64,000 nucleotides of DNA, from the NCBI GenBank assembly GCA_905221615.1, contig CAJNDT010006003.1:380417-444416 (forward strand). Direction: 5' to 3'. The position numbers and the translations under genes are program-made. The DNA is from Symbiodinium sp. CCMP2592. Its lineage: Eukaryota; Sar; Dinophyceae; Suessiales; Symbiodiniaceae. Under the pieces are notes generated by a model, which worked only from the letters and a program-made list of their open reading frames with translations, was not told the DNA's origin and did not search any database. Numbering within the stretch: the first letter of the stretch is position 1; each line of letters begins with the position of its first letter. This document shows positions 45,059 through 59,968 of this stretch, piece by piece.

Positions 45059-45242
45059 TGAGATGTAACCTGGACGTGTATCCCCTCGCTAGGCGTACAG
45101 GAACACAGGCACTCAGGTGTCTCTTTTGCTACAGGCGCACAGCTGTAGTCCACTGCACTAGAACCTTGAGCAACAGGCATGGATACATGCAAGTGATACG
45201 TGAAACAGACAGGCACCTGGATGTGTAACATTCAGTGTTTCA
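45059..45242 (-). repeat. Copia 3' LTR
   Basis: 184 bp, TG...CA ends, identical by eye to 59780-59963. Confidence 0.97.
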
Positions 45243-45244
45243 AC

Positions 45245-45261
45245 CAGGCACAAATTTAAAA
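45245..45261. repeat. 17-bp direct repeat next to the 3' LTR
   Basis: CAGGCACAAATTTAAAA, two bases from the LTR. The identical word at 51137-51153 lies between pol and the cargo. No classical purine-rich polypurine tract is visible next to this LTR. Confidence 0.85.
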
Positions 45262-45733
45262 CACGTAGAGCTGCATGGCCGTGGAGTCGGCAATCTACAA
45301 GCCTGTTATTGCTCTTGGTCGAATTAGCGGAGTATTGAGCTACATCTGCGACTTGAAGAGAATCTATACATCTCTAGCCTGAAGACAGCTTCAATGAAAA
45401 GAGCAGAACACGCACGAAACGCAAACGGATCTTCAACTGAAAACTTTTGCTTGAAAGTTGCCCACTTGTGTTTCAGTTCCCTCTCCAGGCGGAAAGCATA
45501 CTGTAACATAAAGGTGTAAAGCTTAGCTTTACTTGATGCCAGCATGACATCTTGCGGCAAGGCAAATATATAAGGGCATTAGAAGTATCTTATCCTGAGA
45601 TAAGTATCTTTCTTTGAGAAAGAGTTCTTTAGGAAGTCCCTTTTCCTGAGAAAAGCATCTCCCTATGAAATGGCGAATGCTCAAAGTGGATACCTTCTTA
45701 TGAAAGAAGCATTCCGTGAAACACACAGCCAGT
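45262..45733 (-). other. 3' untranslated region of the copia element
   Basis: Lies between the end of the cargo frame and the 3' LTR. No conserved ORF is seen. Its upstream part in element orientation is a cluster of hairpins, listed separately. Confidence 0.7.
45589..45709. repeat. Hairpin cluster in the copia 3' region
   Basis: Four perfect 6-bp stems in 121 bp: CTTATC/GATAAG (45589-45604), TCTTTC/GAAAGA (45607-45623), CTTTTC/GAAAAG (45640-45655) and CTTCTT/AAGAAG (45694-45709). Loops are CTGA, TTTGA, CTGA and ATGA. Weaker relatives lie between them (about 45627 and 45658) and just after (about 45711). Each stem has a different sequence with matching complement, in non-coding DNA. Confidence 0.88.
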
Positions 45734-48340
45734 TCAGTCGACGAACTCTAGGTCTGCATCCCAGGTTCTATCACGCCAATGATCCTCACCATGCCAACGG
45801 TAGATGTCGACAGTGTGAATCGGCATCACCGGCTGATGACGAACAGGGTCGTAACCGCGGGGATCAGCAGGGGATCTAGGTAGCGATATCTGTGGATCTG
45901 GAGCAACGTCTTCAACTTGTTCCAAAGGAACTTCTTCAGAACCATTGTCCATATCCACGTCCGAAGAATCGGAACCTAGTCAGTTCTTCCCCTTGTTCTT
46001 GCCCTTGGACTTGTCCTTGGATTTGCCTTTGGACTTGCCCTTGTCGGCGTCCTTGCCTTTTCCTTTGGAGGACTTGCCTCCTTTGCCGCCTTCTTTGCCA
46101 CCAGGAGGTTGTGCGGGTTCTTGAGGACGTTGAGAACCAGAAGCTTTAGCACCAGAAGCTGCCTCTTCCTGAGAAGAGCTTGCTCCCTGTGGTGCGGCTG
46201 CAGGACCAGTAGAACCAGAACCACGCGCCTTGTTCAGCTTCTGTCTCTCTTTTCTTCTGTCCGCGGCTTCCTTCATGGTGTCGGGATTGCGGTTGAGCGC
46301 TCTCATCCTGCCTCCAGAGTACTGGTTCGCGTGAACCTCGATGAGGAGCGGAGTGTGAGCGTCATAGTCCCGATCGTTGAGAAGGTACGCGGCGCTGGTG
46401 GAGTTTAACAGCCACTCAGAGACATGGATGTCGAACTCAGTCTTTGAAGACGGAAACTCCGCCCATTGATCGTCCGACATGCTGTGTCCCCATTCCATGA
46501 CTGTAGCCATAACAGGATCCAAACCAGGAAAAGTATTCCAGTCTGGTTGCTTAGCTTCCTTGTATGGCATTCCCAGCGTGTCCTCATACTGTTTCAGAAG
46601 CCACATGGCGTTTGCTGACACATGTCTCGCACGAGGCGAACAGAGGTGTGGGCACTTTGGGCTTTCTGACCATGCCTCCAAGAAGTAATCGAGAAGGCTC
46701 TGGTACATCCCGCCACGAATATCCATCGACTCCTGCTTTCTGCCGGTGGCCCGGTAGAGGGCCATGTTGGCGTCGCCACCGATGAGGTCGACTTGATAGT
46801 GCAAGCAGTCGATGAACATGTTGCCCAACACTTCATGAGCCAACGCCACCTTGTCTGCCGCCGCGTCGTTGTGGAGGTGGAAGACACAAACTCTCAGCCG
46901 GTCGGATCCAGCTCGCTCCAAGACCTTGGTCAGTGACTCATCTGGAACATCACCACGACTGCCCTGGAGACCGGTCGGTAACGTCATGCCATACACGATT
47001 TCCGCGACCATATAGGTTATTGGAAGGGACTCGTGGGCATATCCACTGAGAGTGGAGCCGGCAAGACGGGTGATCGAAGATCCGACACCATTTGTACGAC
47101 TTCCCACCATCAGGTCCTTGGACTCGTTACGAAGGAATTGCCAACCGCGTGACTTGAGGAAGGCCTCTTCGGAGTCATCGATCTGAGCCGCTTCGCAGAG
47201 CATGAACAAATGCGTCTTCGACTGTGCAATCGATTTTATCAAGGCTCCTTTAGATGGTGTAGCATCGTCCCAGTCAATGTGATCAGCAACGGAGCGAGGA
47301 GCGGTACGCTTTCTTCCCCTGCTCATGTTGCCGAGATTGAGGATGAGCGCGGCATACTTGGTCTTGCTGGTGAAGATAGGGACATTGGAGTCCTCTGCCA
47401 GACCAAAACGATGAATATAAGGATTCGGCGTCTTCTCAAGAGAGAGGTCCCCGATCTCCTCTTCATCGACTCCGGCGCTCAAGAAGTAGTGAATCATAGC
47501 ATTCAAAAGTTCTTCTCGAGTTGCCGGATTGCCGCTTGCATCCAGGGACTTCAGCTTATCAAGAAGTGCTTCCATGACTTCCAGTGCTGATTCTCGGATG
47601 TCAGAGGCCTTGCCCATGAGCTTGTCGTCCAAGGTGCTACGAACGTCCCCAGAACGAAAAACAACGTTCTTCTTGTCGGGACGACGCTCATAGATGGGAT
47701 CCATCTTGTTGAGTTGGTCGAATAGATCCACCATAGAGAGAGAGTATTTCTGTCCCTTGTGGTTTGGAACATTTACCCTCCAACTCATATGCTGCACCTT
47801 GTAGGCGAGAACGGGCTCGTAATCAGGATCACGAAGTCCTGTATGATACAAGCCTGAATAGCCATATCCATGCAGCTGCTTGCAGAGCATCCGCATAGGG
47901 CTTTGTCGTTCGATTTCGGTGAGCTGCGTAAGGAAATGTTTGAACTCTTCGAGATCGACGAGCTCGATCTTTTCCTTTGCTTTGCCCATCTTGTCGAACG
48001 CGTTCTCATTCTGGTCCTCTGCATCCTTCGCGGCCTGGTAGTACTCAGGATCCGGAACGGTCTTGCATTTCCCCCAGATGCCTTGATCGTGAAGTTCACT
48101 TTCATCATCCTTCTCGGGAGAAATGTCTGGCATGGATTCCTCACCCTGTGGTGAGCCTTCCTCAGCCATTTCGACGTTCTCGGACTTACCTCCTTCCTGA
48201 CCCATGTGCGCATCAGGTTCGACCTTCACCTCGGATGCCTCTCCCTGTGGAGAGCTTTCCGTGGCTTCGGTCTTCTGTTGTGGAACATCCACCCCAGATG
48301 CCTCCCCATGTGGAGAGCTTTCCGGAGCGTCCGTCTCCAT
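45734..48340 (-). pseudogene. Copia cargo, part 2: EEP-fold nuclease/phosphatase-like protein
   Basis: A 786-residue frame ending at a TGA (45980-45982); the same frame stays open after it for about 80 more residues to 45734, so the stop looks premature. Residues 1-90 are an acidic linker with repeated SPQGE words made by the hairpins. Residues about 330-670 carry the ordered landmarks of an endonuclease/exonuclease/phosphatase domain: LILNLGN (Asn335), LCEA (Glu383), VFHLHND (His488/490), LIGGDAN (Asp523, Asn525) and YDAHTP (Asp660, His662). Family members cut nucleic acids or remove phosphates in a metal-dependent way; the substrate here is unknown. A Lys/Gly/Ser-rich tail (about 745-786) could bind nucleic acid or direct nuclear entry. 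It overlaps part 1 by 115 nt in another frame, and a two-base slip in a CTCT run would fuse the two. Confidence 0.78.
46162..46177. repeat. Hairpin in cargo part 2
   Basis: CTCTTC-CTGA-GAAGAG, perfect stem, read as SSSQEEA in the minus-strand protein. A one-mismatch relative lies directly downstream at about 46181-46194. Confidence 0.85.
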
Positions 48341-48451
48341 TGGCTCGACAGAGATGCCTCTCCCTGTGGAGAGCTTTCTGGAGCTTCAGTCTCCATTGGC
48401 ACATCGGTCGGCTCGGTCTTAACCGGATCAACCTTCTTGCCCTGTGGCAAG
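48140..48451. repeat. Hairpin cluster at the cargo part 1/part 2 junction
   Basis: Perfect stems CTCACC/GGTGAG (48140-48155), CTCTCC/GGAGAG (48239-48254 and 48358-48373) and CTTGCC/GGCAAG (48436-48451), all with CTGT loops, plus a one-mismatch copy at 48302-48317. They encode GSPQGE, SSPQGEAS, SSPHGEAS and LPQGKK words in the protein. Confidence 0.88.
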
Positions 48452-51063
48452 TCCGTGGATCCAGACGACGGTTCGGAGGTATCCATCTGAGTAGCCGCGG
48501 GAGGCTCCTCGATCTCCTCGATCTGTGGACATGGGAGTCGCTCGATGAACTCCTCGATCATAATGTCGTCATATGGTCGAGTGAGGAGCTCATTCAGCTC
48601 AGACTCCTTCTTCGCCTTCAAGTCTTCGTACGCCACTAAATCAGCTTTTGCCTTGCGGGCGAAAGCCGACTTGAAATCGCGCTGGTCAGACTCCGTGAAG
48701 ACTTTCTCCAGAACCGCCAGGAGGTAGCTGCCGTTGAACGGCTGCTTCAGGGTACTGTCATAGAGACAATAGCCCTCAGGGGTTCGCACCGTGTATTTAC
48801 GGCGAACCTCCAGATCACCGGCGTGGCGCTGGATGTAGGAGAAGAAGTCCACTCCATAAGCCTCATTGATGACGCGGACGAGCATCTGGAAATCCTCTCG
48901 CACATAGCCAAGCTCTTCATACACATACCTTTCCCTGAGGAAAGCCTTGTGTGCGGCGAGCTTGCGAGAGTAGTCGGGATCCTCTGTCCTTGGCATCCTT
49001 GCACGAGAGTCATTGTCCCGAGGGCGATCGAATCCAATGTTACCCAAATTGGGCCTGAATTCGTTCGACGCGGCAACGGAGACATCGTCCAGCATCTGGG
49101 CAAGACCGCCAGGATGACGCTTAAAGTTCATCCAAGGTGACGTGTAACCGTTGGAGTAAACCTTCGGTTTCTTGTCCAGCTCCACGAGGTAGTTCCCCTG
49201 CAACTTCCCCATCTCGAAGGCCTTGAGGAAGAAGTGCAGGGAGTACCCCGAAAGAGGATGCTGCAACCACGATGCCCAATCGTATTCACCACCCAAAGAC
49301 TCTCTCATAGAAGTAGTCAAAGTGTGCCAGGGGGTGACCTGAACGAGGGCATCGCCATAGGTGCTAAGCATCGGCTGGCCAGAGGAGTCCACCATGTGCA
49401 ACTTGCCGTGCGCGAAGAGATGCCATGGATTCGTCCTGGCCTTGCGGAGAACCTCGTTGAGCTCCTCCTGCTGCTGGGACTTATGCGCATCAATCTTGCC
49501 GTGGACGGTGTCCCCAGCCTGATACGCATACTTGGTGTCTCCTTCGGAGGCTGTGGCTTGCCGCTCCCGCTCTTCCTTAAGCTCATTGTCACGAATAAGC
49601 TTCTGGAGAGCTGCCGCGTCCAATGTGGGTACCTTCTCCTGAGAGAAGCTTCCCGGTGACGCTTGGCCTGCATCCTGAGATGTCTTTGGCCGCTTCTTGG
49701 GAGCTGGCTTCGAAGGCATTGGATCCGAGCTGCTACCCGGTACCCCTCCCTGTGGAGGGCCTCCGGAAGCAGATGCGGAAGCAGACGCTGAGGTTCCCTC
49801 TTCCTGAGAAGAGCCTACCCCTGCGCTTTGCTGCTTCCTCTCGTGGCGAATGCCACCCGGATCTTGCTCGTGAGGAGGACGGTAGTGATGTGTGAGATAC
49901 ATCGCCGGAATGTCCTGGTACGAGAGCACCACGCCATTGTCTGTAAGAAACAGATTGTGGCCGTGACTCAGGTAGCACTCGTAATCGAGCTTGGCGTAGA
50001 AGACGTAGGTACCGTACTTAATGACGGTCCCAGGCCCAGGAGAAACCACTCCACCCGCATAAACGAGGTGGATGGCCTTCCTGTGCCGCTGCCACGCCGC
50101 CTTCGTCGCCTCCAGCTTTAAGCCGTTTTCCCGGATGCTCTCGTAGTTGCTGTTATCCGAGGCGTGGAAAATCGTTCCAAGCTGGCGGCATCGCTCCAAG
50201 GTGAGCCTTTCCCCGAGAGCAACATCAGAGACCCGCTCGGGTATCCGTGAGTGACCCTGGACGGCGGAGACCCCGATATAGAAGTCGAAGTCAAAGAACC
50301 GCTCGAACTGCAGAGCCACTGGGGCCACCCAGATGTTGAAGCGACCCTTCGAGTTCGCCATCAAGAAGGCGAAGAACTTCTTGGGCTCCCACTCGAAAGG
50401 CCTGATGGGGTGCTTCATCATCGTCTCCAACGGGATCTCCATGTATCGACCCGGCGTGACCCTCGTGTCGTGCCTGGTCAATGATGACAGCTGTTTGGAT
50501 GACTTCACCGCCCATCCACCGTGATTGTGGCGCATCTGGTGAATGTTGAAGATTTCACGATCGAGCTCGGTGAGCTCGTCGCCGGTAAGACATCCAAGAA
50601 AGCACCGGAGGAAGTCGAACTTCCACGTGAGGTGCCGCTGCAACACATGGGTCCCAGGGTGAGCTTCCTCGTACAGCAGGACGTGTGACAGAAAGGCCAA
50701 CTGTCCTTCCAGAATGTTCACCGCGGCCATCTCCCCCTGAGGGAAGTACGCCGTGGTGTCCTGCTGACGGAAAAACCGTGGAACACCTTCTGGGATGATC
50801 CTGAGGGAGGCCACCGGAGCACTCGCAGGATAGGCTCGACGATCCCTTGTAGGATAGCTGGCACTACCGTCGCCATCTCCAACTGTTCGGAGTACACGAC
50901 GGTTTGCCCAGGACGCGCTCTGTTGGTACAAGGACAGGTCGGGGACACCAGTGCGGACGTCAATCTTGAAGTTGCATCCCGTTGTCGGTGTCCAGTAGAC
51001 CTGGAATGGTGCCTCCTCATGAGAGGAGCGTCCAGTGTCCATCGAGGGTCCTGCCGCAGCCAT
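48226..51063 (-). CDS. Copia cargo, part 1: Tpt1/KptA-like RNA 2'-phosphotransferase domain
   Basis: A 945-residue frame between pol and the 3' LTR. Residues about 188-391 follow the Tpt1/KptA order: SSKQLSSLTRH (Arg197-His198, matching the LRH motif), a middle lobe with NSKGRFNIWV (family NDKxRF), SAVQGHS (266-272, matching RAxQGHS), IFHAS and SIRENGL (300-315, matching HGT and SI.xxGL), RHRKAIHL (326-333, matching RxHVHL) and GVVLSYQDIPAMYL at the end. The family transfers an internal RNA 2'-phosphate to NAD+, typically after tRNA ligation. The Arg of RAxQGHS is Ser266 here, so full activity is doubtful. Upstream residues 1-185 and the C-terminal half (480-900) are unrecognised. The last ~35 residues lie past a frame slip and are probably not native. 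No signal peptide or membrane segment is seen, so it is not an envelope-like ORF. Confidence 0.75.
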   Translation of the reverse strand: MAAAGPSMDTGRSSHEEAPFQVYWTPTTGCNFKIDVRTGVPDLSLYQQSASWANRRVLRTVGDGDGSASYPTRDRRAYPASAPVASLRIIPEGVPRFFRQQDTTAYFPQGEMAAVNILEGQLAFLSHVLLYEEAHPGTHVLQRHLTWKFDFLRCFLGCLTGDELTELDREIFNIHQMRHNHGGWAVKSSKQLSSLTRHDTRVTPGRYMEIPLETMMKHPIRPFEWEPKKFFAFLMANSKGRFNIWVAPVALQFERFFDFDFYIGVSAVQGHSRIPERVSDVALGERLTLERCRQLGTIFHASDNSNYESIRENGLKLEATKAAWQRHRKAIHLVYAGGVVSPGPGTVIKYGTYVFYAKLDYECYLSHGHNLFLTDNGVVLSYQDIPAMYLTHHYRPPHEQDPGGIRHERKQQSAGVGSSQEEGTSASASASASGGPPQGGVPGSSSDPMPSKPAPKKRPKTSQDAGQASPGSFSQEKVPTLDAAALQKLIRDNELKEERERQATASEGDTKYAYQAGDTVHGKIDAHKSQQQEELNEVLRKARTNPWHLFAHGKLHMVDSSGQPMLSTYGDALVQVTPWHTLTTSMRESLGGEYDWASWLQHPLSGYSLHFFLKAFEMGKLQGNYLVELDKKPKVYSNGYTSPWMNFKRHPGGLAQMLDDVSVAASNEFRPNLGNIGFDRPRDNDSRARMPRTEDPDYSRKLAAHKAFLRERYVYEELGYVREDFQMLVRVINEAYGVDFFSYIQRHAGDLEVRRKYTVRTPEGYCLYDSTLKQPFNGSYLLAVLEKVFTESDQRDFKSAFARKAKADLVAYEDLKAKKESELNELLTRPYDDIMIEEFIERLPCPQIEEIEEPPAATQMDTSEPSSGSTDLPQGKKVDPVKTEPTDVPMETEAPESSPQGEASLSSQWRRTLRKALHMGRHLGWMFHNRRPKPRKALHRERHPR
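48929..48944. repeat. Hairpin in cargo part 1
   Basis: CTTTCC-CTGA-GGAAAG, perfect. Here the coding phase differs from most copies (read as FLRERY). Confidence 0.8.
49633..49813. repeat. Three hairpins in the linker after the Tpt1-like domain
   Basis: CTTCTC/GAGAAG (49633-49648, loop CTGA), CCCTCC/GGAGGG (49744-49759, loop CTGT) and CTCTTC/GAAGAG (49798-49813, loop CTGA). All sit in the low-complexity Ser/Pro/Gly linker at residues about 415-478. Confidence 0.88.
51013..51028. repeat. Hairpin near the start of cargo part 1
   Basis: CTCCTC-ATGA-GAGGAG, perfect, read as SSHEEAP at residues 13-19. Confidence 0.85.
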
Positions 51064-51225
51064 GCTGGTAACAGAAGAAGAGGAAGTTGTGGGCTACTTT
51101 CTCACTTGAGTTTTGAACCAGCTGATTTGAGCAATGCAGGCACAAATTTAAAAAGAGACCAACAACTCTTCATGAAGCACATGCATTGAATTGCTCCGAC
51201 AGCTCACACATGAAGCAGACATGAC
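51064..51225 (-). other. Spacer between pol and cargo
   Basis: 162 nt between the end of the RNase H frame and the cargo ATG. It contains the 17-bp repeat shared with the 3' LTR boundary. No promoter or splice signal could be assigned. Confidence 0.6.
51137..51153. repeat. 17-bp direct repeat between pol and cargo
   Basis: CAGGCACAAATTTAAAA, identical to 45245-45261. The pair brackets the whole cargo block. Confidence 0.85.
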
Positions 51226-52257
51226 TCACAAACGCTCCTGCATGAACATGACATGTTGCACTGCACTCAAAACCGCGTACTCCTTACGGAGCCAGGCGTT
51301 CAAGAAGGCCTTGTGCTCAATCATGGAACGAAAAGGAGGATGTGAATCAATTTCCTTCAACCACCCAGTTTGAACAGAACTCAGGAGGTTTCTAGGATTA
51401 GCGCTTCGTTTCGTGAGACAGTCAGAAAGACAGTGTTCGGTTCGAACGTGAGAAAGATCAGCAATAGCACCTGAACACGCTTCCTTTCTCAGCATTTGAA
51501 TCATGTGAATGGTTTCCTGTTGTTCGGGTGAGTGAGTAGTAGAAGCGGTAGACACGAGATTATTAGCATCGGTGCGAATGTGAATCTCGGCATCCAAACC
51601 ACTAATGTCCTTCCACAAACCACGAAGCATTTGACAGGTACCAAAACACTTCATCAAGGCGTAAAGCTCAGCGACAGTGGTACTGAGGGTCGTTCTCTTA
51701 ATCTTGGTTGATTCGAAGAAGACCAATGAGCCTCGGGTGTCTCTTCGATTCTTGACCCTTTCATCTGCGATGAAGATAGTCATCGCCCTCTGTGAGGACT
51801 TGTCGCTGTTGTTACGGAAAGCTGCGTCAGGAATTCCAAGAATCCTCGGTGATCCCTTCACTGGCCACACCCGCAACTCTACTTCCTCACTGCGTATCTG
51901 TCGACACAACTTGTTCAACTCCTTGCAGTGACCAACAGTCGGAGCAGCGGATGCTGATGCCAGACGAGAGAACTGGTAACATGCCTGAAATTGCGTCCTC
52001 GACTGAAGCCAGTTGATGCTACCAAGCAAAGAGCGATAGGAAGTGTGAAGAGATTTATCACACGCATCTGCATCCTTAAGATGCTTTGGTATGACAATCT
52101 CCTCAAGCTCTGAAACACACAGCTTTTGATCGATCGAGATATACTTCTTCTTCCCTTGTGCATCAAGAACCCAACGAACACGCTGTCCCGTGAACGTAAG
52201 GTCATTCTTGTCCTCATGGCCGACAGTGAAGTGTTCCTTGATCTTCTTAGGAACCAA
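51226..52257 (-). CDS. Copia RNase H and C-terminal pol, shifted frame
   Basis: A 343-codon frame that continues pol after a one-base shift near 52250. After a short RT tail (YRSLLGSINWLQSRT is the usual copia segment before RNase H) it carries RNase H landmarks: GIPDAAFRNN (Asp), TTVAELYALMKC (Glu), HIRTDANNLV (Asp) and EHCLSDCLTKR (Asp). RNase H removes the RNA template during cDNA synthesis. The shift at CCTAAGAAG is most simply a lost A; with that base the copia sequence would be continuous. The frame ends 162 nt before the cargo ATG. Confidence 0.92.
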   Translation of the reverse strand: MVPKKIKEHFTVGHEDKNDLTFTGQRVRWVLDAQGKKKYISIDQKLCVSELEEIVIPKHLKDADACDKSLHTSYRSLLGSINWLQSRTQFQACYQFSRLASASAAPTVGHCKELNKLCRQIRSEEVELRVWPVKGSPRILGIPDAAFRNNSDKSSQRAMTIFIADERVKNRRDTRGSLVFFESTKIKRTTLSTTVAELYALMKCFGTCQMLRGLWKDISGLDAEIHIRTDANNLVSTASTTHSPEQQETIHMIQMLRKEACSGAIADLSHVRTEHCLSDCLTKRSANPRNLLSSVQTGWLKEIDSHPPFRSMIEHKAFLNAWLRKEYAVLSAVQHVMFMQERL

Positions 52258-55200
52258 GTGAGGAACTCAGGGGTTCCACTTATGATGAGATCATCAACAT
52301 GAAGACTCATCACTCCAACTGTCCTGCGACCTTTGCTGGGACTTCCATGCACAGGGTCAACAAAGTGTTCAAGAAGCTGATCAACCAACTCGGGGGAGAG
52401 CTCTGATAAGCTCTCGACCTTGTATGAAGCCTTCTCTGGAAGGAACAAAGAGACTAGGACCTCAGCTTCTTCTTCAAGGAAGCAGGTCTTGTCACCCTTG
52501 TCCAACCTCAGGTCATGAGCCCTTTCGACAATCCACCATGTCCCTTTACGAAGGATCATGGAAACTCGATAAGGGTAGTCCTTGACCTGATAGACAGGTG
52601 CTGGAGTACGAAGAGCCTTGGCCCTGTGAGAAACGAGAGCATGCCCGTTCTCATAAGGGAACCAACCTCTCTTCTTACAAGCAACACTGCCCAAGAATCC
52701 GAGAAGCTTATCGTCAGTAACAGGTCTCCAAGCATAGTCAACCATCTTCTTGGTATCGGTGTTAAAACACTGAGCGATATCGGGACATGAAAGATAGGAT
52801 CTCTCCTCCGCACGGTCGGAGGAAGAACGGTTTCCTTCATCGTATGCGTAGCATGTCATGGCATGAAGGGCAACCTCCTTGAGGTAGGCAGGTTCCACCT
52901 CAAGAGAGGTGCTTCCTGCTTCAGGTTCCTCCTCCTGAGAGGAGCTTCCTGCCGCAAGGTGGCTCTTGCCCTTCTTGCCTTCTATGCCGTCGTATGCGAC
53001 ATAAGTGCATCGGTCAGCTCTGGTCGGTTCCATGCCTACAGACCTGAGGAATTTGTCCAAACGATTCCACCATCTTCTCGGTGCATCGTTCAGACCATAG
53101 ACCGGTCTGAGACAAAGGCCAACCATCCAGGTAGGCAAACCGATGTCAGGAGGCAACTGAACCACAACCATGCGAGATGACAGATTGTAGTGTTCCCCCT
53201 GAAGGAAAGCGGTCTTAAGATCCAAATGAAAAAGATCCCAATAGTGATTGGCAGCGCACTGCGCAACCAAACGGAAACCATACCGAGTAGCCGTAGGGCT
53301 GTCCGTTTGTTGATCCCAGGCAAACTTGTCCTGAAACCCACGACAAACCCATCGGGCTTTGAACTTGGAAAAGTAACCGTTCTTGTCAACCTTCACAGTA
53401 AGGACCCAACGTCCGGTAAGAAAATTGACATCGGTTTTAAGCTTGCGACGGTCCGTCAACCGAATTGCATCATTGTCCAAGTAACTCTTGAACTCTTCAA
53501 GTTTAGCCTTCCGAATTTCGGCGGCATACTTGCGCTGCATCTCCGGCGTGAGGGTACCTGCCTTGATTTTATCTTGTTTAGTCAACCACGACGCAAAACC
53601 ATCACCATCCAACGGAACAAAGGACGGAACCTTGAAGTCCGACGGAAGGCGAATCAAAACGTCGTCGTCGCCAGCAGCCAAGGCAAGCAAGCTTTCATCA
53701 CGATAGTCAACCGTAGCATCCGAATCAGTATCCTCACCAGCTTCCGGCACCGGCGGTTCCGGGGTGGGTTCCGGGAGTGGGGTTTGCTGGATAGGAAATT
53801 CCCCCTCAGTCACCGGCAAACCAGGAACAGGAGCCGGATCAGAAGAAGAGGAAGCAGGTTCGTGAAAACCTGGAAAGTCACCCGACGGATCGGGATCCTT
53901 CTTTCCCGCAGACTGCCCAGGCAACAACACAACCGGAGGTCCCACAACAGTACGTGACTTGGCCTTAGACACATCTTCAGGATGTGTGCCTCTGGCACGT
54001 GTCTGAGACACATTGCGAGGCGACGGCGGTCGCATACTCTGTGGCACCGGAAAGTGAGGATGCGGCGGAATTGGAACAGGAACAATAGGTGAAGGTGGTG
54101 CCGGCCACGGCATCGGTGGACTAAGAACCTGATCCGGGTTCGCAAACTGAGGCGGAGCCCCAGGAGAATCGGGAGGACCTCCAGGAGGAGGCGACTCCTC
54201 GTGAAACTCCATCGGAAGAGGAGGCTCTTCCGGTGACGGACCATAACCAGGTCCCGGTCCCTGAGGACCGCCTCCTGGCGGATGTCCATCACCGTCCGGA
54301 TCGTGATCCAGGTCGGAATCATCATCTCCCCCTGGTACCGGTACATGAGTACCGCCTCCAGGAGGTTGTGACGGAGGGTCACCACCGACATGCAACTCAA
54401 CAGGATTATCATCTAAATCCTGCTCTGGATGCTGTAGTGGCATTTCCTCATCGTCCACAGGCATATCACCGTGTGGATCATCATATCCTGGATAGTCCAC
54501 ATCATCGTCTGTGGCTGGCGGTTGCGGTGCAACCGGGGCTGGCGCTGGCTGGTCCGTGAAGTCCAAGCCAACATCAGGCCCGCGTCTGGAATTGTTGTTC
54601 TGTGACTCATTCCAGAACACTATCATGGACCAGTGCGTTGATTGCATATCCTTAAGGCAAGGAAGCAACTGTGCCATCGTCACGAAAAACACATGATTCA
54701 TATCACCCTTCTGCCACAAAATGACAACAGCATCAGGATGACGATGAACCAAAGGGAGTGTTTTCCCTTGAGTCCCCCTGTAGACGTTACAGTACTCAAA
54801 CTCCAGATACGGCAGAGTTAACACGCGCACATTCTTAATCATCGGCCGCAAGGCGACCGCGTCAGACGATGTGGTCGTGTGAACTTCCAACTCAGTACCT
54901 GGAAGAAGACTGTCAACATATGACAGAGTCTGGACCAAAGACGATGTAACAAACCGCTGCGGCGCAACAAACCTCAGAGGTGTCGGAAGCTTCCCTTTGT
55001 CATTGTTTGAGAGTAATGAGTACTCTGCTTCTGACGGAAGAACCGGTAAAGCCTCTGAATTGCGGTCTGATCGCAAACACAACGCACACAGTGTTCCATC
55101 ATCAAAATCCTCAAAGATATCTTCGAACAAGTAACATTGTCGGAGATCTGATCGTTCATCACCCACAAGACACTGCGAAAGCAGCACAGCAAACCTTGGA

Positions 55201-58016
55201 TCAAGTGCGTTAGCAGAGTCATAGCCTTCTTCCAACGACTCCAAACGGCCAAATGATCCATCAGGCAGATTAGTGAGAAAAGAAAGCTCACCATGCTGAC
55301 GCTTGCCGTGGTCATCTCCCCCTGAAGGAAGTACACCACGGTTCTTGAAGGTGTGGAATGAAAGTCCTCTCCTCCACTTCAGCGAGCGACTACTCTGCGA
55401 AAGCCAAAACCCACAATGAGAAGGATACATGATGGTCACGAAGTATCCATCACCCTTGTCATCTTGCCAACGGCAGACTTCGGCACAAAAGTGCCAGAAG
55501 GCATTGGTAGCCTTCCTGGTCCAACCATCAGGGATGACAGGATGAATCAAAATGTGATTAGGCTCTGCCTTCAAGATCACTCGCCAAGCGGCCTCAATCG
55601 AAGATTGGATAGACTTGGCGTTCCATTCACCAAACAACACAGGTTCACTCGCATCAAGTCCAGAATGGACTGTGCACGCAGTAAGCCCGGTGAGGCGAGG
55701 TGTGATCTCAACGAAATCGCTCTTGCCTGAAGTGAGAGTGTGGTAACAGATCTCATGCTCATAGCAGAACCCAGAACCGGCACGATCAAGAATATCGTCG
55801 CCGATGCGGTCGAGTGCCTCTTCCTGAGAAGAGCGTCTCGGGACCTCATCTTTCTTCAGAGGAATGGCCACATCATGCCACGGATCTCCATCACGCCTGA
55901 CCTTCGACTGATTAACCCGAAGAACGGCACGATGAACTTCAACCAACACCATGGCACCTTCCTGTGACACAACTATGCCTCTGACCCAGGTTCCTTCAGA
56001 CTTCTTCTTCGACTCATCCTTATGCCAAACAAACACGCGGTCACCCTTCGAGTAAGGACCATCAGACGGCATGACTCTCCGTGCAAGGTCCTTCCGAAGG
56101 TCAAGTGATTGTCTAGCCTCTTGATGAGCCCGCATGGCAATCCTCTGGAGTTCCAGAGTGGTTCGATCCTCCTCGGCAGGTTCAGCAGAGAGCTGTTCAG
56201 GAGAACTGTTCTCGACATCAAACAAGTCTGGTGGCCGTCTTCCTGTAGCTATCTCCAAAGGAGAATAGCCTGAGACGGTAAGCTGGCAATTTCTTGCCCA
56301 AGCCACCTTCTTGACTGCTTGACGAACAGTCACCTTCTCTGCATAACCCTCATCAGCTAAGGCCTTGGCCATGATTGCCCAGGTGCGCTTGAAAAGACGC
56401 ACTGCGGTCTCAGCTCGATTAGGCCAAGGAGTCCGTGGTCCACATGGATACGGAGTAATGCCATGGAACTTGTAGTAAGACATGAACTGTGGCGTGAAAA
56501 ATGCTTGATCTCCTACGATTCCCTTAGGAACGCAGTTGTTCTCCTCTGTCCATTGTCTAAAAGCTCCCAGAGTCTCTGGCGCTTCCAGGCTTGTAAGAGC
56601 CGTAGCCCACAGAAGATTTGAAGCACCATCAATGATGACCAAAGCCAAGTAGGCTTTAGTACCGAACTTGATTTCTTCATGATCAACAAAAATGAGATCA
56701 CCGAAGGATGATGCTCTTAACCCTGCGATTCTGGCTCGCGGAGGCGTAGGCACCGAGGTGCTGCAAACACGACAGCCTTTGACAATGCGGTCGTACTTGT
56801 CATAGATCTCTCCTGGCAGACCAAGCATGCTGGTCCTGCGTCGAAACTGAGCAGGACTCATGTGGTAATGCTTCACATGCAACTTGTAAAGCTCAACATC
56901 ATTGTTCAGCTTTTCCAACATGCGCTGATACTGCGGAGAAGCCCTTGAGACCTCGTGGCCTGGCAACGGAAGCGCGATCCTCCTAGGTTCTAGCGACTGT
57001 GGCTCTGGGGCCTTCGGAGGACTCGGAGGAAGCAAATCTGCATCCCCCGGTTCGGAAGGTTCGTACTCTTGAAGATCCGGATCATCCTCAGGAGCAAGAG
57101 GAGGAGGAGCCGGTTCCTCGGGTGCCTTTCCCTGTGGAAAGCTTCCCTTGGCTCGAATCCTTCTCTTTGCCGGTGCCTTTCCCTGCGGAAAGCTTCCGGA
57201 TGCTCCTGTGTTCTTCGAGCTGTCTTCAGGCTTACCTGCGCTAACCATGTCCTCTGGAGATCCTACCTTTCCACGGGTTGGATCCTTGGACTTGGCTGGC
57301 ACCGAGGTTCTACTCTCGATGCCACCAGGCAGAATCTTGAAAATGGTCTTGCCTTTCCAAGAGTCAGTAGTTCTTGTTGAAGAAAGCTCAGAAGAACGCC
57401 AGTCATCTTCTTGAGTAACGCTCTTTCCCTTGGAGAACTCCATGATCGTCTTGCGCTTGGTGTCCAGATACTCCAACGGAATTGGCACATAACCCGCCTT
57501 GGGTTCGTACTTGACTCTTCTCATCTTCTTGTGGATGCGAATCATTTCCATGTCGGCTTCGTTGATCACCCATTCATCATCAGTCGCCAACACGAGATTG
57601 TCGGGTACCTGTTCATGAGAACAGCATCCCTCGGTCTTCTGATGGAAGCCGTACTCGTAGTGGGAGAAGTAGGTGAGGAAGCTCGACTTCTTATGCTTGC
57701 TGAAACGCACATTCCACATCAGCTGACTGAGTTCAAGAAGATCAAGTACCAGGTGTGAGCTGGGTGCAACCTTCAGCCTCACATCCTTGATTCCCAGCAC
57801 AGGGCTGCTGAGCAAGGCCTTTTCCGGATGGAGCTCGAACTGGAAACGAAGATTGTTCCACAATGTCGAACTCTGTGGATTGAACTGCAAAATCCCGGTC
57901 GTACATGCAAATGACCAACTTCTGGTTGCATTTGGTAGACTCGGAATTGGCAAAGGTGAACTGAGAAGTGGTCTCAGCAATGGTGTACCATATGCCACAG
58001 TTCTGGTTCTTGTCAC
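51915..58016 (-). CDS. Copia pol: integrase and reverse transcriptase
   Basis: A 2,033-codon frame overlapping gag by 275 nt in the +1 frame; its first ATG is arbitrary, and homology begins near residue 50. Integrase: a His/Cys zinc segment (about 380-418, ending CRVC), FVDHEE (Asp445), IVGDQAF (Asp503) and NRAETAV (Glu536), which inserts the cDNA. Residues about 720-1140 are unrecognised and 1150-1440 form a Pro/Gly/Asp-rich linker. Reverse transcriptase starts near 1475: FLTGRWVLTVKVD, HLDLKTAFLQG (Asp1599), PVYGLNDAPRRWW and LHVDDLIISG (Asp1908-Asp1909). About 250 residues separate the last two motifs, against about 55-60 in ordinary copia. The native frame ends near residue 1922 at the shift to the RNase H frame; the last ~110 codons are off-frame. 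Confidence 0.93.
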   Translation of the reverse strand: MTRTRTVAYGTPLLRPLLSSPLPIPSLPNATRSWSFACTTGILQFNPQSSTLWNNLRFQFELHPEKALLSSPVLGIKDVRLKVAPSSHLVLDLLELSQLMWNVRFSKHKKSSFLTYFSHYEYGFHQKTEGCCSHEQVPDNLVLATDDEWVINEADMEMIRIHKKMRRVKYEPKAGYVPIPLEYLDTKRKTIMEFSKGKSVTQEDDWRSSELSSTRTTDSWKGKTIFKILPGGIESRTSVPAKSKDPTRGKVGSPEDMVSAGKPEDSSKNTGASGSFPQGKAPAKRRIRAKGSFPQGKAPEEPAPPPLAPEDDPDLQEYEPSEPGDADLLPPSPPKAPEPQSLEPRRIALPLPGHEVSRASPQYQRMLEKLNNDVELYKLHVKHYHMSPAQFRRRTSMLGLPGEIYDKYDRIVKGCRVCSTSVPTPPRARIAGLRASSFGDLIFVDHEEIKFGTKAYLALVIIDGASNLLWATALTSLEAPETLGAFRQWTEENNCVPKGIVGDQAFFTPQFMSYYKFHGITPYPCGPRTPWPNRAETAVRLFKRTWAIMAKALADEGYAEKVTVRQAVKKVAWARNCQLTVSGYSPLEIATGRRPPDLFDVENSSPEQLSAEPAEEDRTTLELQRIAMRAHQEARQSLDLRKDLARRVMPSDGPYSKGDRVFVWHKDESKKKSEGTWVRGIVVSQEGAMVLVEVHRAVLRVNQSKVRRDGDPWHDVAIPLKKDEVPRRSSQEEALDRIGDDILDRAGSGFCYEHEICYHTLTSGKSDFVEITPRLTGLTACTVHSGLDASEPVLFGEWNAKSIQSSIEAAWRVILKAEPNHILIHPVIPDGWTRKATNAFWHFCAEVCRWQDDKGDGYFVTIMYPSHCGFWLSQSSRSLKWRRGLSFHTFKNRGVLPSGGDDHGKRQHGELSFLTNLPDGSFGRLESLEEGYDSANALDPRFAVLLSQCLVGDERSDLRQCYLFEDIFEDFDDGTLCALCLRSDRNSEALPVLPSEAEYSLLSNNDKGKLPTPLRFVAPQRFVTSSLVQTLSYVDSLLPGTELEVHTTTSSDAVALRPMIKNVRVLTLPYLEFEYCNVYRGTQGKTLPLVHRHPDAVVILWQKGDMNHVFFVTMAQLLPCLKDMQSTHWSMIVFWNESQNNNSRRGPDVGLDFTDQPAPAPVAPQPPATDDDVDYPGYDDPHGDMPVDDEEMPLQHPEQDLDDNPVELHVGGDPPSQPPGGGTHVPVPGGDDDSDLDHDPDGDGHPPGGGPQGPGPGYGPSPEEPPLPMEFHEESPPPGGPPDSPGAPPQFANPDQVLSPPMPWPAPPSPIVPVPIPPHPHFPVPQSMRPPSPRNVSQTRARGTHPEDVSKAKSRTVVGPPVVLLPGQSAGKKDPDPSGDFPGFHEPASSSSDPAPVPGLPVTEGEFPIQQTPLPEPTPEPPVPEAGEDTDSDATVDYRDESLLALAAGDDDVLIRLPSDFKVPSFVPLDGDGFASWLTKQDKIKAGTLTPEMQRKYAAEIRKAKLEEFKSYLDNDAIRLTDRRKLKTDVNFLTGRWVLTVKVDKNGYFSKFKARWVCRGFQDKFAWDQQTDSPTATRYGFRLVAQCAANHYWDLFHLDLKTAFLQGEHYNLSSRMVVVQLPPDIGLPTWMVGLCLRPVYGLNDAPRRWWNRLDKFLRSVGMEPTRADRCTYVAYDGIEGKKGKSHLAAGSSSQEEEPEAGSTSLEVEPAYLKEVALHAMTCYAYDEGNRSSSDRAEERSYLSCPDIAQCFNTDTKKMVDYAWRPVTDDKLLGFLGSVACKKRGWFPYENGHALVSHRAKALRTPAPVYQVKDYPYRVSMILRKGTWWIVERAHDLRLDKGDKTCFLEEEAEVLVSLFLPEKASYKVESLSELSPELVDQLLEHFVDPVHGSPSKGRRTVGVMSLHVDDLIISGTPEFLTWFLRRSRNTSLSAMRTRMTLRSRDSVFVGFLMHKGRRSISRSIKSCVFQSLRRLSYQSILRMQMRVINLFTLPIALCLVASTGFSRGRNFRHVTSSLVWHQHPLLRLLVTARS
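52873..52944. repeat. Hairpins in the reverse-transcriptase insertion
   Basis: ACCTC/GAGGT (52873-52885, 5-bp stem), CACCTC/GAGGTG (52896-52911, loop AAGA) and CTCCTC/GAGGAG (52929-52944, loop CTGA) lie within 72 bp, inside the extra segment between RT motifs. Confidence 0.85.
55818..55833. repeat. Hairpin after the integrase domain
   Basis: CTCTTC-CTGA-GAAGAG, perfect, read as RSSQEEA at pol residues 728-734. Degenerate relatives (CTCCCCCTGAAGGAAG type) lie near 55316 and 50731. Confidence 0.85.
57126..57192. repeat. Two hairpins before the integrase domain
   Basis: CTTTCC/GGAAAG at 57126-57141 (loop CTGT) and 57177-57192 (loop CTGC). Both encode GSFPQGKAP, giving a repeated word in pol at residues 274-282 and 291-299. 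Confidence 0.9.
57609..57624. repeat. Hairpin early in pol
   Basis: CTGTTC-ATGA-GAACAG, perfect, read as CCSHEQVP. Confidence 0.85.
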
Positions 58017-59577
58017 AGAACTCCATGAGGTCCTGTGCGGCCACTCTCGAAGCCATTGCTCTCGTGCATCCCAGGTCCAACACCATCGCGGTCGGCGTCA
58101 AGGGCTGAGAGATGAAGGCTTCCTCGATCTCATTGATCTTCTCTTCGGTGGCCATGAAAGAAAAGTTCGGAGTGTTGAGATGTTCAACGAAGAAGGTTGT
58201 GGCGGCTGTGGTGCCGCTCGGGGCAGCATCAGCAAGCTGGCTCTGTCCGTCTTTTCCGGACTTTCCATCTTTTCCATCCTTGCCAAACTTGCTCTTTCCT
58301 TTGCCCTTCTTTCCTTTCTTTCCTTTTCCTTTGGCTGCATAGGATTCCTCAGACTCATACCAGGACCAGTCATCCCAGGACTGATCGCTCCACTGGTAAT
58401 CTTGCCATTGTCCTTCTGCTTGCCATGCTTCTGATTCTTCGGCAAGATGTGACCTGCCTTTCTTCCTTTTGAAGAAGCGCCTTCCTTTGGATCCTTTGCC
58501 ACCTTTTCCTTTGCCTTTACGGTGGCCCTTGAATCCGCGCCTCATCTTGCGGCCTTGGAAGCGCCGCTGGAACCATGAATAGTTCTCGTCGTCGTAGACC
58601 CAGAAGGCGTCCTCATCCGCTTCGAGGAAACCTTCGGTGCCATCTTCCTCGTCCTCGACCCAGTAGCCTTCATGATCGTTCAAATATCCTTCATCGATCA
58701 CAAGGAAGGTCTTGCGGCCACCGTGGCCGGAAGGAGCGAGGAGTGGATTGTCGACGGTAGTCTTGGTCGTACAGAAGATCTCCAGGTAGACTTCGCGAAG
58801 CTCGGCCGTGTTGTAGTCAGCCAGGACTCGGTTCCGATGCGCCATCAGTGATGTCAACACCTGACGCTGATCCTGTGTCAGATCAGACAGAGACACAAAG
58901 ATCAAAGCGACCAGGTTGGGCGTGATCGGAATGGTCCGAGCATGCTGCTCTCTGAGCCGTTCGTTGGCTCTCTCCATTGCCTGAGCTGGCGTAAGGTTTT
59001 CTTGTTCTTCTGGAGGAAGTCCTACTATGAAGGCTCTGACCTCTGCATTGTTCGGGTCCTCGATCGGCAGATAGGTATCGTTCCACGCTTCTTGCATTCT
59101 CTGAACAGAGAGTTGAAACCTGGTAATCCAACGAAGCATGTCTCCGTTCCCACGGTGCATGTTCATGAACTGCTGGAAGCGATAGAGAAAAACATTCGCT
59201 GCTCCCTTCACGAAAAGCGGCCGCAGGAAACTCTTGAAGTACTTCACTCCGTTGTTCGGGTCCTTCAGGCGATCTCTGTCGAGAAGTCTCTTGTGGATTG
59301 CTGCTTCACCTTCTAGCCGATTTCTCAAAGCTGGTCCACGCTTATCATTGTCTAGCTCAGTAATGTCACACCAGTCATCGATCGCATCTTCATAGGCAAA
59401 CCAACTGCTTCTACCATCATAAGATGGAGGTACTTTTGTGGTCACCTGCTGGAAAGCTGAAAGACGGTGTAATTCATTGAGATGACGATGATTAGTCGCG
59501 AAAGATTCATTTCCGTGGAGGAGGTAGTCATCATCTCCTCCTTCATGCTCAAAGATAGTCGCAGAGTGGCTAGCCAT
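57742..59577 (-). CDS. Copia gag with protease-like segment
   Basis: A 611-codon frame; the ATG at 59577 is the first after the hairpin leader. Residues about 45-260 are mostly helical and include the copia-gag-like FLRPLFVKGAANVFLYRF and an RMQEAWNDTYLP segment; this part should form the particle. No CCHC zinc knuckle is visible; instead there are two Lys/Gly-rich basic blocks (about 343-375 and 415-445) around a Trp/Asp/Ser stretch. Near residue 499 VLDLGCTRAMASR occupies the protease position, with Asp501-Leu-Gly in place of the usual Asp-Thr/Ser-Gly. The last ~30 residues lie past the overlap with pol and are probably off-frame, since the protein-like continuation switches to the pol frame near 57865-57840. 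Confidence 0.88.
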   Translation of the reverse strand: MASHSATIFEHEGGDDDYLLHGNESFATNHRHLNELHRLSAFQQVTTKVPPSYDGRSSWFAYEDAIDDWCDITELDNDKRGPALRNRLEGEAAIHKRLLDRDRLKDPNNGVKYFKSFLRPLFVKGAANVFLYRFQQFMNMHRGNGDMLRWITRFQLSVQRMQEAWNDTYLPIEDPNNAEVRAFIVGLPPEEQENLTPAQAMERANERLREQHARTIPITPNLVALIFVSLSDLTQDQRQVLTSLMAHRNRVLADYNTAELREVYLEIFCTTKTTVDNPLLAPSGHGGRKTFLVIDEGYLNDHEGYWVEDEEDGTEGFLEADEDAFWVYDDENYSWFQRRFQGRKMRRGFKGHRKGKGKGGKGSKGRRFFKRKKGRSHLAEESEAWQAEGQWQDYQWSDQSWDDWSWYESEESYAAKGKGKKGKKGKGKSKFGKDGKDGKSGKDGQSQLADAAPSGTTAATTFFVEHLNTPNFSFMATEEKINEIEEAFISQPLTPTAMVLDLGCTRAMASRVAAQDLMEFCDKNQNCGIWYTIAETTSQFTFANSESTKCNQKLVICMYDRDFAVQSTEFDIVEQSSFPVRAPSGKGLAQQPCAGNQGCEAEGCTQLTPGT

Positions 59578-59779
59578 TGCGCTGTTCTTGGATCGAGCCC
59601 CGGGAGAAACCTCTTCCGGTTATCTTCACCTGAGTGAAGTGTGCCGGAGAGACTCCGGTCACCTTCACCTGAGTGAAGCACACCGGGTATTCCGGTTGCC
59701 TCCACCTGTGTAGAGAGTACCGAACGGGTACCTCCACAAGTGTGAAGCTTCCCGTTTCCCGGGAGCTCCGCTACCACGT
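59578..59779 (-). promoter_or_regulatory. Copia 5' leader with hairpins
   Basis: 202 nt between the primer-side LTR and gag. Two copies of CTTCAC-CTGA-GTGAAG (59624-59639 and 59663-59678) are perfect; 59700-59715 and 59732-59747 have one mismatch each. Three of the copies are preceded by CCGGT or CCGGTT; the last is preceded by ACGGGTAC. Position suggests possible roles in packaging, dimerisation or translation (inference only). Confidence 0.75.
59766..59776 (-). other. Primer-binding site, initiator Met-tRNA type
   Basis: On the element strand this reads TGGTAGCGGAG, starting three bases after the LTR. It is complementary to a tRNA 3' end CTCCGCTACCA. Initiator Met-tRNAs of eukaryotes commonly end in GCTACCA and copia elements commonly use them; the exact host tRNA is not in the window. 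Confidence 0.75.
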
Positions 59780-59963
59780 TGAGATGTAACCTGGACGTGT
59801 ATCCCCTCGCTAGGCGTACAGGAACACAGGCACTCAGGTGTCTCTTTTGCTACAGGCGCACAGCTGTAGTCCACTGCACTAGAACCTTGAGCAACAGGCA
59901 TGGATACATGCAAGTGATACGTGAAACAGACAGGCACCTGGATGTGTAACATTCAGTGTTTCA
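59780..59963 (-). repeat. Copia 5' LTR
   Basis: 184 bp, identical by eye to 45059-45242. No TATA-like promoter box could be assigned with confidence. Confidence 0.97.
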
Positions 59964-59968
59964 CCCCG
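59964..59968. repeat. Copia target-site duplication, right
   Basis: CCCCG, matching 45054-45058. C-rich DNA continues to about 59998. Confidence 0.7.

Follow-up and report, generated by a model that had tools for sequence, protein, structure and literature searches.

The DNA examined here, a window of 64,000 nucleotides from the dinoflagellate Symbiodinium sp. CCMP2592, contains a retrotransposon in which short hairpins recur from the leader to the 3′ region. This raises the question of what the hairpins are: products of base composition, traces of a repeated peptide, inserted sequences, or a structure that is selected in the DNA or RNA of the element.

The host element and its hairpin module

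The hairpin-bearing element is a Ty1/copia-type LTR retrotransposon on the minus strand of the window (Table 1), with TG...CA LTRs and a probable primer-binding site as in that type; the latter we take to be initiator-tRNA-like. CGGGG stands in the flanks on both sides, probably as a 5-nt target duplication within a C-rich tract. The genomic RNA would measure ~14.7 kb. A reverse transcriptase domain (RVT_2, E=2.2e-15) was identified in pol, with no integrase (rve) match in the window at 1e-3; in L001, a distant relative whose pol is 40% identical, a weak rve match (E=0.026) lies upstream of the reverse transcriptase. The predicted structure of gag contains a confident helical domain, and the best PDB match for this model had E=0.13, hence no Gag fold match; the ORF3 model (mean pLDDT 35) was too poor for use. 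One report (PMC5890265) describes copia elements as more abundant in Symbiodinium genomes than any other retrotransposons.

A first-pass annotation had listed 22 perfect hairpins with a 6-bp stem and a short loop. Of these, 21 proved to be perfect 6-bp/4-nt hairpins; the exception, at 45607, lacks the 6+4+6 form, and the one placed at 46162 starts at 46163. The hairpin itself is real, but that description missed an outer stem and an internal loop: the full module comprises an outer stem (at least 3 bp), a symmetric 3x3 internal loop, the 6-bp stem and a 4-nt loop, the 6-bp/4-nt hairpin being its tip. We catalogued 31 modules, 23 in coding sequence and eight non-coding, which bears out the placement of copies in leader, coding sequence and 3′ region: four stand almost adjoining in the leader between the primer-binding site and gag, and four lie in the 3′ region. 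The first 27 were hand-picked from 38 in-element rows with the pairing patterns visible to the picker; of the 11 rows left out, one (47438) was added later. The catalogue leaves out 49922 (G.G/G.A) from the 27 strict-scan rows, plus nine further stem-only rows.

Table 1. Features of the element and its catalogued hairpins, in window coordinates
Feature	Coordinates	Strand	Remarks
3′ LTR (TG...CA)	45059..45242	-	direct repeat, 99%; ends read
5′ LTR (TG...CA)	59780..59963	-	direct repeat, 99%; ends read
Primer-binding site TGGTAGCGGAGC	59765..59776	-	probable; read from sequence
gag ORF, 611 aa	57742..59577	-	helical domain; basic GK-rich/RRFFKRKKGR region; CCHC pattern absent
pol ORF	51915..58016	-	RVT_2
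ORF2	48226..51063	-	weak Tpt1/KptA-like domain
ORF3	45980..48340	-	unknown
Hairpin 1 (5′ leader)	59725..59754	-	
Hairpin 2 (5′ leader)	59693..59722	-	one internal-loop flank imperfect
Hairpin 3 (5′ leader)	59656..59685	-	
Hairpin 4 (5′ leader)	59617..59646	-	
Hairpin 5 (pol)	57602..57631	-	double changes G-C>C-G and T-A>C-G in relatives
Hairpin 6 (pol)	57170..57199	-	
Hairpin 7 (pol)	57119..57148	-	double change T-A>A-T in one relative
Hairpin 8 (pol)	55811..55840	-	
Hairpin 9 (pol)	55309..55338	-	missing in copy C1559, clean 21-nt gap
Hairpin 10 (pol)	54332..54361	-	
Hairpin 11 (pol)	54248..54277	-	
Hairpin 12 (pol)	52922..52951	-	
Hairpin 13 (pol)	52889..52918	-	
Hairpin 14 (ORF2)	51006..51035	-	outer-stem double change T-A>C-G in two relatives
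Hairpin 15 (ORF2)	50870..50899	-	other reading phase
Hairpin 16 (ORF2)	50724..50753	-	
Hairpin 17 (ORF2)	49791..49820	-	
Hairpin 18 (ORF2)	49737..49766	-	
Hairpin 19 (ORF2)	49626..49655	-	double change T-A>C-G in 3 copies, broken pair in a fourth
Hairpin 20 (ORF2)	48922..48951	-	other reading phase
Hairpin 21 (ORF2)	48429..48458	-	
Hairpin 22 (ORF2)	48351..48380	-	unit duplicated in tandem
Hairpin 23	48295..48324	-	unit duplicated in tandem; double change, unclear orthology
Hairpin 24	48232..48261	-	unit duplicated in tandem
Hairpin 25 (ORF3)	48133..48162	-	damaged by 3-nt gap in copies C1559, C5007
Hairpin 26 (ORF3)	47425..47454	-	G.G>A.A switch in copies C3113, C5007
Hairpin 27 (ORF3)	46156..46185	-	
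Hairpin 28 (3′ region)	45687..45716	-	
Hairpin 29 (3′ region)	45633..45662	-	
Hairpin 30 (3′ region)	45582..45611	-	
Hairpin 31 (3′ region)	45474..45503	-	

The density of hairpins is far above that of shuffled sequence. Between 45.5 and 59.8 kb there are 26 perfect 6-bp/4-nt hairpins, compared to 4.1 +/- 1.9 (max 8) in 50 dinucleotide shuffles, and 22 of the 26 carry a CTGA, CTGT, ATGA or CTGC loop (shuffles 0.12, max 1). A strict scan blind to loop sequence returned 27 modules on the element sense strand; in 25 of them the internal loop has homopurine pairs at both flanks, compared to 0.0 in 20 shuffles. When geometries were compared in a grid (loop 3-8, stem 4-8, internal loop 1-4; 30 shuffles), the reported one ranked top in the window element (20 vs 0.07), and the top three entries in L001 were the same geometry and its sub-registers (4 vs 0.13, 5 vs 0.3 and 7 vs 0.57). 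No geometry stood out other than this one and its sub-registers, and the rest were rejected; shuffles and grid together rule out chance or composition as the origin. Rfam 15 gave 0 covariance-model matches at gathering score in 45059-59966.

The first-pass annotation saw no hairpins outside the element. Within the window this holds for the strict scan, with 0 homopurine-flanked modules on both strands of the other 49 kb, and for a covariance model, which found no module outside the element; of the 24 such cases from a looser scan with simple repeats dropped, at least one fell outside, among the matches listed (8 of up to 12 kinds per strand). Beyond the window, sampling of eight 3-kb loci (24 kb) gave one weak covariance-model match, at the very place chosen because it fitted the loop pattern. 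The check for the module elsewhere in the genome covered ~73 kb.

Covariation, conservation and origin of the stems

Stem sequences differ between copies in the element while the shape is common to them. Across copies, stem positions are paired in 96.3% of cases compared to 62.1% when shuffled, and the covariation score (0.951 vs 0.230) was reached in 0 of 500 shuffles, which bears out the covariation first reported. The internal-loop flank positions were nearly always G.G or A.A in the first 27 hairpins (26/27 and 27/27), with no A.G; over all 31 copies A.G occurs 0 times, against 10.6 and 9.7 expected, four of these copies having been added with that feature known. Under a stem-only definition without an internal-loop rule, both positions are homopurine in 30 of 41 hairpins, and A.G or G.A appears in two at position 7 and four at position 9; the rule of no A.G thus belongs to the catalogue only.

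Between related elements, inner stems are two- to five-fold less diverged than flanks. At orthologous sites, copy C5151 differs by 6.1% in flanks, 1.7% in inner and 1.7% in outer stems and at 1/120 homopurine positions; for C1559 the values are 7.8%, 3.5%, 4.8% and 0/104. Flank divergence is 13.3% in C5007 (inner stem 4/132, outer 6/88) and 10.3% in C3113 (3/144 and 3/96). The near-identical copy C380 shows no such deficit of divergence in its stems (2/276, flanks 0.4%), and one pair is broken, one is G.U and one homopurine pair is broken.

Pooling C5151, C1559, C5007 and C3113 (729 pairs), we counted 10 double Watson-Crick changes, 5 single G.U and 3 broken pairs; the count omits site 55322 in C5007, a misassignment, because the C5007 locus does not reach that site. 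Five of the double changes are clear, distinct events, compared to three broken pairs, and a G.G>A.A switch occurs in two copies. We did not count the double change at 48308 as clear, since orthology is blurred there by the tandem units. Compensatory change, for which comparison of related elements had been proposed, was therefore found, and with the low stem divergence it argues for selection on the fold. Not every hairpin is intact in the relatives, where some are damaged or missing. Letters change freely in the apical loop and at the centre of the internal loop; the apical loop drifts fast (7.5% and 19.2%), so that a reading of the loop by a binder is unsupported (P0130, P0134 and P0135 were left out of the loop-residue grouping).

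In the distant L001 the geometry recurs, built from other sequences. A partial relative, L002 (6.7 kb), yielded no module by strict scan or covariance model and one row in the loosest scan; model R1 with default filters missed 3 of 10 of its own L001 training sequences. Scans of viral contigs for relatives confirmed no match.

A selected, repeated peptide (S-P-Q-G-E-like) could in principle have left hairpins as a by-product, and 20 of the 23 coding hairpins do share one reading phase. Counting for the fold, a peptide trace gave matches for both pairings in 60 of 90 unique 7-mers, compared to 17.3 when shuffled (max 31). The remaining three coding hairpins, however, lie in other phases, and we give this origin next to no credence: the non-coding copies, 8 of the 31, together with the compensatory nucleotide changes, contradict it.

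Repeated insertion of mobile micro-elements, proposed in the first-pass annotation, would account for copies in both coding and non-coding sequence, for the tandem duplicates and for gain or loss at one site, where hairpin 9 shows a clean presence/absence difference. It nevertheless fits poorly and is very improbable: many sites occupy orthologous places in relatives, at 57-84% identity for pol and 49-67% for ORF2, the copies have shape rather than stem sequence in common, and the rest of the window is without copies (strict scan). At least some new hairpins stem from local duplication.

Perfect stems could form in DNA as well, as cruciforms, as hairpins in single-stranded cDNA or as recombination sites, and the 21-nt difference would also suit selection at that level. 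We consider this quite improbable. Sense-strand exceptions in inner stems favour G.U over A.C (5 vs 1 in the window, 5 vs 0 in L001), and the purine flanks of all 25 strict modules lie on the sense strand; orientation relative to the element therefore matters. The strand evidence is mixed: distinct changes at orthologous stems comprise four G.U and two A.C, the latter speaking for DNA, and L001 holds 5 other mismatches besides.

Taken together, the covariation, the conservation of stems in relatives and the recurrence of the geometry in L001 give good support, at the level of sequence, to a model in which the hairpins are a selected, dispersed RNA structure, not a peptide motif or sequence-similar insertions. 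The geometry, covariation, conservation between related elements and absence from the other window DNA (strict scan) are established as properties of the sequences compared.

Candidate readers of the module

We propose, with a probability of about 50%, that the hairpins are a dispersed, shape-coded recognition module read by an element-encoded protein, likely Gag, for RNA recognition and packaging. Each copy would fold in the sense genomic RNA, presumably the active molecule, into an outer stem, an internal loop with two G.G or A.A pairs, a 6-bp stem and a 4-nt loop. The purine-framed internal loop may be recognised by an RNA-binding protein of the element, in the way that purine-purine pairs are bound by arginine-rich peptides where the major groove is widened. 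Gag appears the best candidate, with a strongly basic stretch and no zinc knuckle: a CCHC pattern is found in neither the window gag nor the L001 gag-pol, and in 2 of 104 long gag-pol proteins (in one of them far outside gag), compared to an RRFF basic motif in 79 of the 104. About 30 cooperating sites, four of them between the primer-binding site and gag, would allow Gag to select its own RNA and condense its ~14.7 kb into particles, as dispersed packaging signals are proposed to do in some RNA viruses. Packaging, one of the functions first suggested, is compatible with these data and is our preferred reading, as a candidate rather than a demonstrated function. We saw nothing that speaks positively for two others of those suggestions, frameshift structures and recombination sites.

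Alternatively, the hairpins might attract a protein, of the host or of the element, that serves export, stability or translation of the long multi-ORF RNA. A purine-framed internal loop within a helix is a trait of the Rev/RRE type, and the hairpins are spread along the RNA, downstream ORFs included. Four of them, however, occupy the region between primer-binding site and gag, which is the usual encapsidation site, and we regard such a non-packaging role as unlikely, if a serious contender. Less probable still is a role as substrates or guides of an RNA-processing enzyme, such as the Tpt1/KptA-like protein of the element or a host double-strand nuclease. A Tpt1-like domain is predicted in both hairpin-bearing elements examined (window ORF2 8e-6, L001 2e-9), but no constant sequence marks a cut site, given the free variation of internal-loop middle and apical loop.

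Comparison with known systems

A whole LTR-retrotransposon RNA with ~30 shape-recognised modules may constitute a self-recognition code that distant dinoflagellate elements have retained despite drift in their stem and loop sequences; we propose this tentatively, at somewhat less than even odds. We know of no earlier genome-wide, multi-site packaging or RNP-assembly code in a retrotransposon; this would be the first, possibly with family-specific loops against cross-packaging. The module would offer a concrete cis-signal for how copia elements recognise their own RNA, and ~30 covarying copies per RNA in several element families a natural experiment on protein reading of a non-Watson-Crick RNA shape. 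In unannotated data, such elements could be picked out with the covariance model and the peptide grammar. In the literature searched we found no earlier description of these hairpins and no report of dispersed packaging signals in LTR retrotransposons.

Bacterial REP/REPIN and Rickettsia palindromic elements are likewise short palindromic repeats, some of them coding; they have a common sequence and spread by insertion. The window hairpins differ in having a common shape and in being seen only in one kind of element: their stems differ, and none was found in the rest of the window (strict scan, model), the genome being sampled thinly.

Yeast Ty1 is also copia-type, with a Gag that has basic clusters and no zinc finger according to parts of one account (PMC4974528). 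There, the cis requirement is satisfied by terminal sequence of about 380 nt (5′) and 357 nt (3′), up to 5 kb of internal sequence can be deleted, and the parts available mention no repeated module (PMC4974528). Dispersed signals are therefore not general for Ty1/copia, and the sufficiency of terminal sequences in Ty1 counts against the packaging reading.

Stem IIB of the HIV-1 RRE, bound by the Rev arginine-rich motif, resembles the module in its purine-purine pairs within a helix. Its G.G pair is reportedly exchangeable for A.A (Bartel et al. 1991). The RRE is one asymmetric high-affinity site, whereas the window element has ~30 symmetric copies. In the Rev site, the arginine-rich helix enters a major groove that G-A and G-G pairs have widened, as stated in part of PMC4488727.

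Another close parallel may be the dispersed packaging signals of small RNA viruses, described in part of PMC6281560 as many degenerate stem-loops genome-wide with a common recognition feature, and likewise those of hepatitis B virus. The window element also has many dispersed stem-loops with a common structural feature, which a protein would have to recognise. In MS2 that feature is (x)xYA in the loop and a bulged A, as far as the excerpted source goes; here it is a homopurine-framed internal loop between covarying stems. The module would thus extend the idea of dispersed packaging signals from RNA viruses to retrotransposons.

Hairpin module and covariation of its stems

The hairpins lie in a Ty1/copia-type LTR retrotransposon on the minus strand, with LTRs of 184 nt each (TG...CA) and a tRNA-type primer-binding site. 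The first-pass annotation had listed 22 covarying 16-nt hairpins; 21 of these were perfect 6-bp stems with 4-nt loops, while the copy at 45607 failed and the position 46162 was off by one base. Their density exceeded that of shuffled sequence, with 26 perfect 6-bp/4-nt hairpins between 45.5 and 59.8 kb compared to 4.1 ± 1.9 (maximum 8; 50 shuffles).

Features of the element and hairpins named in the text
Feature	Position	Strand	Remark
gag ORF		minus	
pol ORF		minus	RVT_2, E=2.2e-15
ORF2 (second ORF)	48226-51063	minus	weak Tpt1/KptA domain
ORF3 (third ORF)	45980-48340	minus	
Tandem units	48232-48380		~56-63 nt, one hairpin each
Hairpin 5	57602-57631	minus	
Hairpin 7	57119-57148	minus	
Hairpin 8	55811-55840	minus	
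Hairpin 9	55309-55338	minus	
Hairpin 14	51006-51035	minus	
Hairpin 19	49626-49655	minus	
Hairpin 25	48133-48162	minus	
Hairpin 26	47425-47454	minus	

Twenty-seven copies, chosen from 38 scan rows and aligned by their centres on the sense strand, have one architecture in common: an outer stem, then an internal loop of 3x3, then a 6-bp stem capped by a tetraloop that most often reads TCAG, ACAG or TCAT. The first three outer pairs are formed in 25/27, 27/27 and 24/27 copies, and outer pairs overall in 106/135 cases compared to 56.7 with partners swapped (maximum 73 in 2,000). Internal-loop position 7 is G.G in 21 copies, A.A in five and T.G in one; position 9 is A.A in 23 and G.G in four; the middle position is Watson-Crick in 1/27 (7.5 expected). 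A scan blind to loop sequence added four copies, giving a catalogue of 31 (5′ leader, 4; pol, 9; ORF2, 9; ORF3, 5; 3′ region, 4), none of which has A.G at position 7 or 9 (10.6 and 9.7 expected). Both positions were homopurine (G.G or A.A) in 30 of 41 stem-defined hairpins picked with no internal-loop rule, and in a grid over alternative geometries only this module and its sub-registers stood out.

The proposed covariation of the stems was confirmed in 41 sequences (31 from the window and 10 from the distant element L001): standard pairs filled 96.3% of cells (62.1% shuffled), 151 cells had changed on both sides (33 shuffled), further pair types numbered 34 (25 shuffled) and the covariation score was 0.951 (0.230 shuffled). 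None of 500 shuffles matched any of these values; a fifth measure, pairs changed on both sides (9/10), was equalled by 84/500. Because structure served to pick the 41 sequences, comparison with relatives carries more weight.

Related copies and distant elements

Within the 1.098 Gb assembly (5,383 contigs), at least 71 stretches match the RT region, all except three at 98-100% identity (70 of 3,008 candidates scored). The CTNNNCCTGWGNNNAG loop pattern occurs 4,130 + 4,359 times compared to 1,495 + 1,449 for its reverse; these are counts of the loop pattern itself, folded or not. The coding region of the window copy (45980-59577, minus strand) is broken across several frames; in some other copies gag-pol is an open frame of ~2,811 aa and ORF2+3 one of ~1,685 aa. 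By eye, ORFs at 5769-9023 (minus strand) resemble LINE endonuclease and reverse transcriptase; the strict scan found no homopurine hairpins in them.

In element copy C5151 (30/31 sites aligned), divergence was 6.1% in flanks, 1.7% in both inner and outer stems and 1/120 at homopurine positions; in C1559 (26/31 sites) the values were 7.8%, 3.5% (inner), 4.8% (outer) and 0/104. The internal-loop middle (15% and 13.5%, respectively) and apical loop (7.5% and 19.2%) changed at the flank rate or above. For the ORF2/ORF3 stretches, C5007 differed by 13.3% in flanks, 4/132 in inner and 6/88 in outer stems, and C3113 by 10.3%, 3/144 and 3/96. The near-identical C380, in which flanks differ by 0.4%, the inner stem by 2/276 and a broken pair, a G.U and a broken homopurine pair occur once each, is uninformative.

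Compensatory change was indeed seen in relatives: among 729 pairs from C5151, C1559, C5007 and C3113 (one misassigned site removed), 10 were double Watson-Crick changes, five single changes to G.U and three broken. Distinct double changes fall at two pairs of hairpin 5 and in hairpins 7, 14 and 19, with one more in the tandem units, where orthology is unclear. Hairpin 26 switches from G.G to A.A in two copies. C1559 lacks hairpin 9, which is replaced by a 21-nt gap, and its hairpin 25 is damaged, as is that of C5007. Most hairpins are unaltered in the near-identical C6 and C12. Tandem-unit number apparently differs between copies (C6 and C12 compared), and varying units appear to be a route to hairpin gain. 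We put the probability that the hairpins are a selected structure at about 0.95.

The distant copia element L001, whose pol is 40% identical to that of the window over the longest aligned segment, yields 10 homopurine modules by the strict scan, where shuffles give 0, and 12 or 17 rows when the rules are relaxed, an overlap accounting for one of the 17. Eleven of 12 loops end in CA, and the usual internal-loop order, A.A then G.G, is opposite to that of the window. A covariance model, R1, trained on 31 window and 10 L001 copies returned 31 places in the window, all already catalogued. In L001 it hit 10 places, including three that were not among its training copies, and missed three of those that were. 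The partial relative L002 gave no module by strict scan or R1, and one row under the loosest rules. Both contigs have dinoflagellate-type relatives and sit inside GTDB MAGs labelled Euryarchaeota, and are apparently mis-binned.

A Tpt1/KptA (RNA 2′-phosphotransferase)-like domain lies 3′ of pol in both hairpin-bearing elements (L001:8861-10030, E 2e-9), and L001 encodes a distant ORF3 homologue (23%). By eye, the GGDANMAL stretch of ORF3 resembles endonuclease/phosphatase enzymes.

Peptide trace and probable active strand

Among the protein-database relatives of the element are entries under the names Symbiodinium microadriaticum and S. natans. For hairpins in coding sequence, a peptide grammar can be predicted from the fold, pairing S with E, F/L with K and C/W with Q (first rule), and S with E/D, P with G, T with V and A with A (second rule). 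Both rules were obeyed by 60 of 90 unique matching 7-mers, drawn from 158 proteins, compared to 17.3 shuffled (maximum 31 in 5,000 shuffles). Orthologous sites show paired residue changes (for example SSSQEEE / SFSSEKE / DFSQEKI), and the alignments also reveal absences. The related protein P0003 has an additional PRGSSHEEVRGDA adjoining hairpin 8, which looks like a local duplication; the P0016 group (44% identical) shows little trace at eight pol sites. The loop residue is mostly uniform within two ORF2 groups that we drew from the alignment (S/F in 24/24 peptides of one, Q/H in 20/25 of the other). Identity to the window separates the groups (58-67% and 49-55%), except for P0133 (45%), placed in the first.

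By eye, a stretch 5′ of RT in proteins P0101 and P0110 and in the homologous window pol resembles a cytosine methyltransferase, with PPCTPWS and ENP in P0101 and a degenerate window counterpart; Pfam did not recognise it in P0101.

Inner-stem exceptions read on the sense strand were G.U rather than A.C by 5:1 in the window and 5:0 in L001 (plus five other mismatches); changes in orthologous stems were less clear (four distinct G.U, two distinct A.C). The sense strand folded more stably in 10/10 tested hairpins, with z-scores favouring it in only 6/10. Purine flanks lay on the sense strand in 25/25 strict modules, and therefore orientation matters. The best reading, though not a proof, is that sense RNA is the active molecule.

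A candidate role in packaging

No Rfam family matched at gathering score, and such hairpins were not found described in dinoflagellate or copia elements in the portions of the literature that our searches returned. The window gag has no CCHC pattern, its residues 340-450 are strongly basic (31 K/R, 15 D/E) and its helical domain gave no clear structural match. The leader runs from the primer-binding site through four nearly abutting hairpins to the gag start, and the region between primer-binding site and gag start is the classic place for an encapsidation signal.

Gag would recognise and package the element RNA through dispersed hairpin signals, a function to which we give about even odds. 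We prefer it because of the basic, CCHC-free gag, the leader hairpin array and the Rev-like purine-framed loop. The concept of dispersed packaging signals comes from excerpts of PMC6281560. The site read by Rev, as excerpts of PMC4488727 describe it, has a purine-framed internal loop, and the constant feature of the window hairpins is likewise an internal loop framed by purines.
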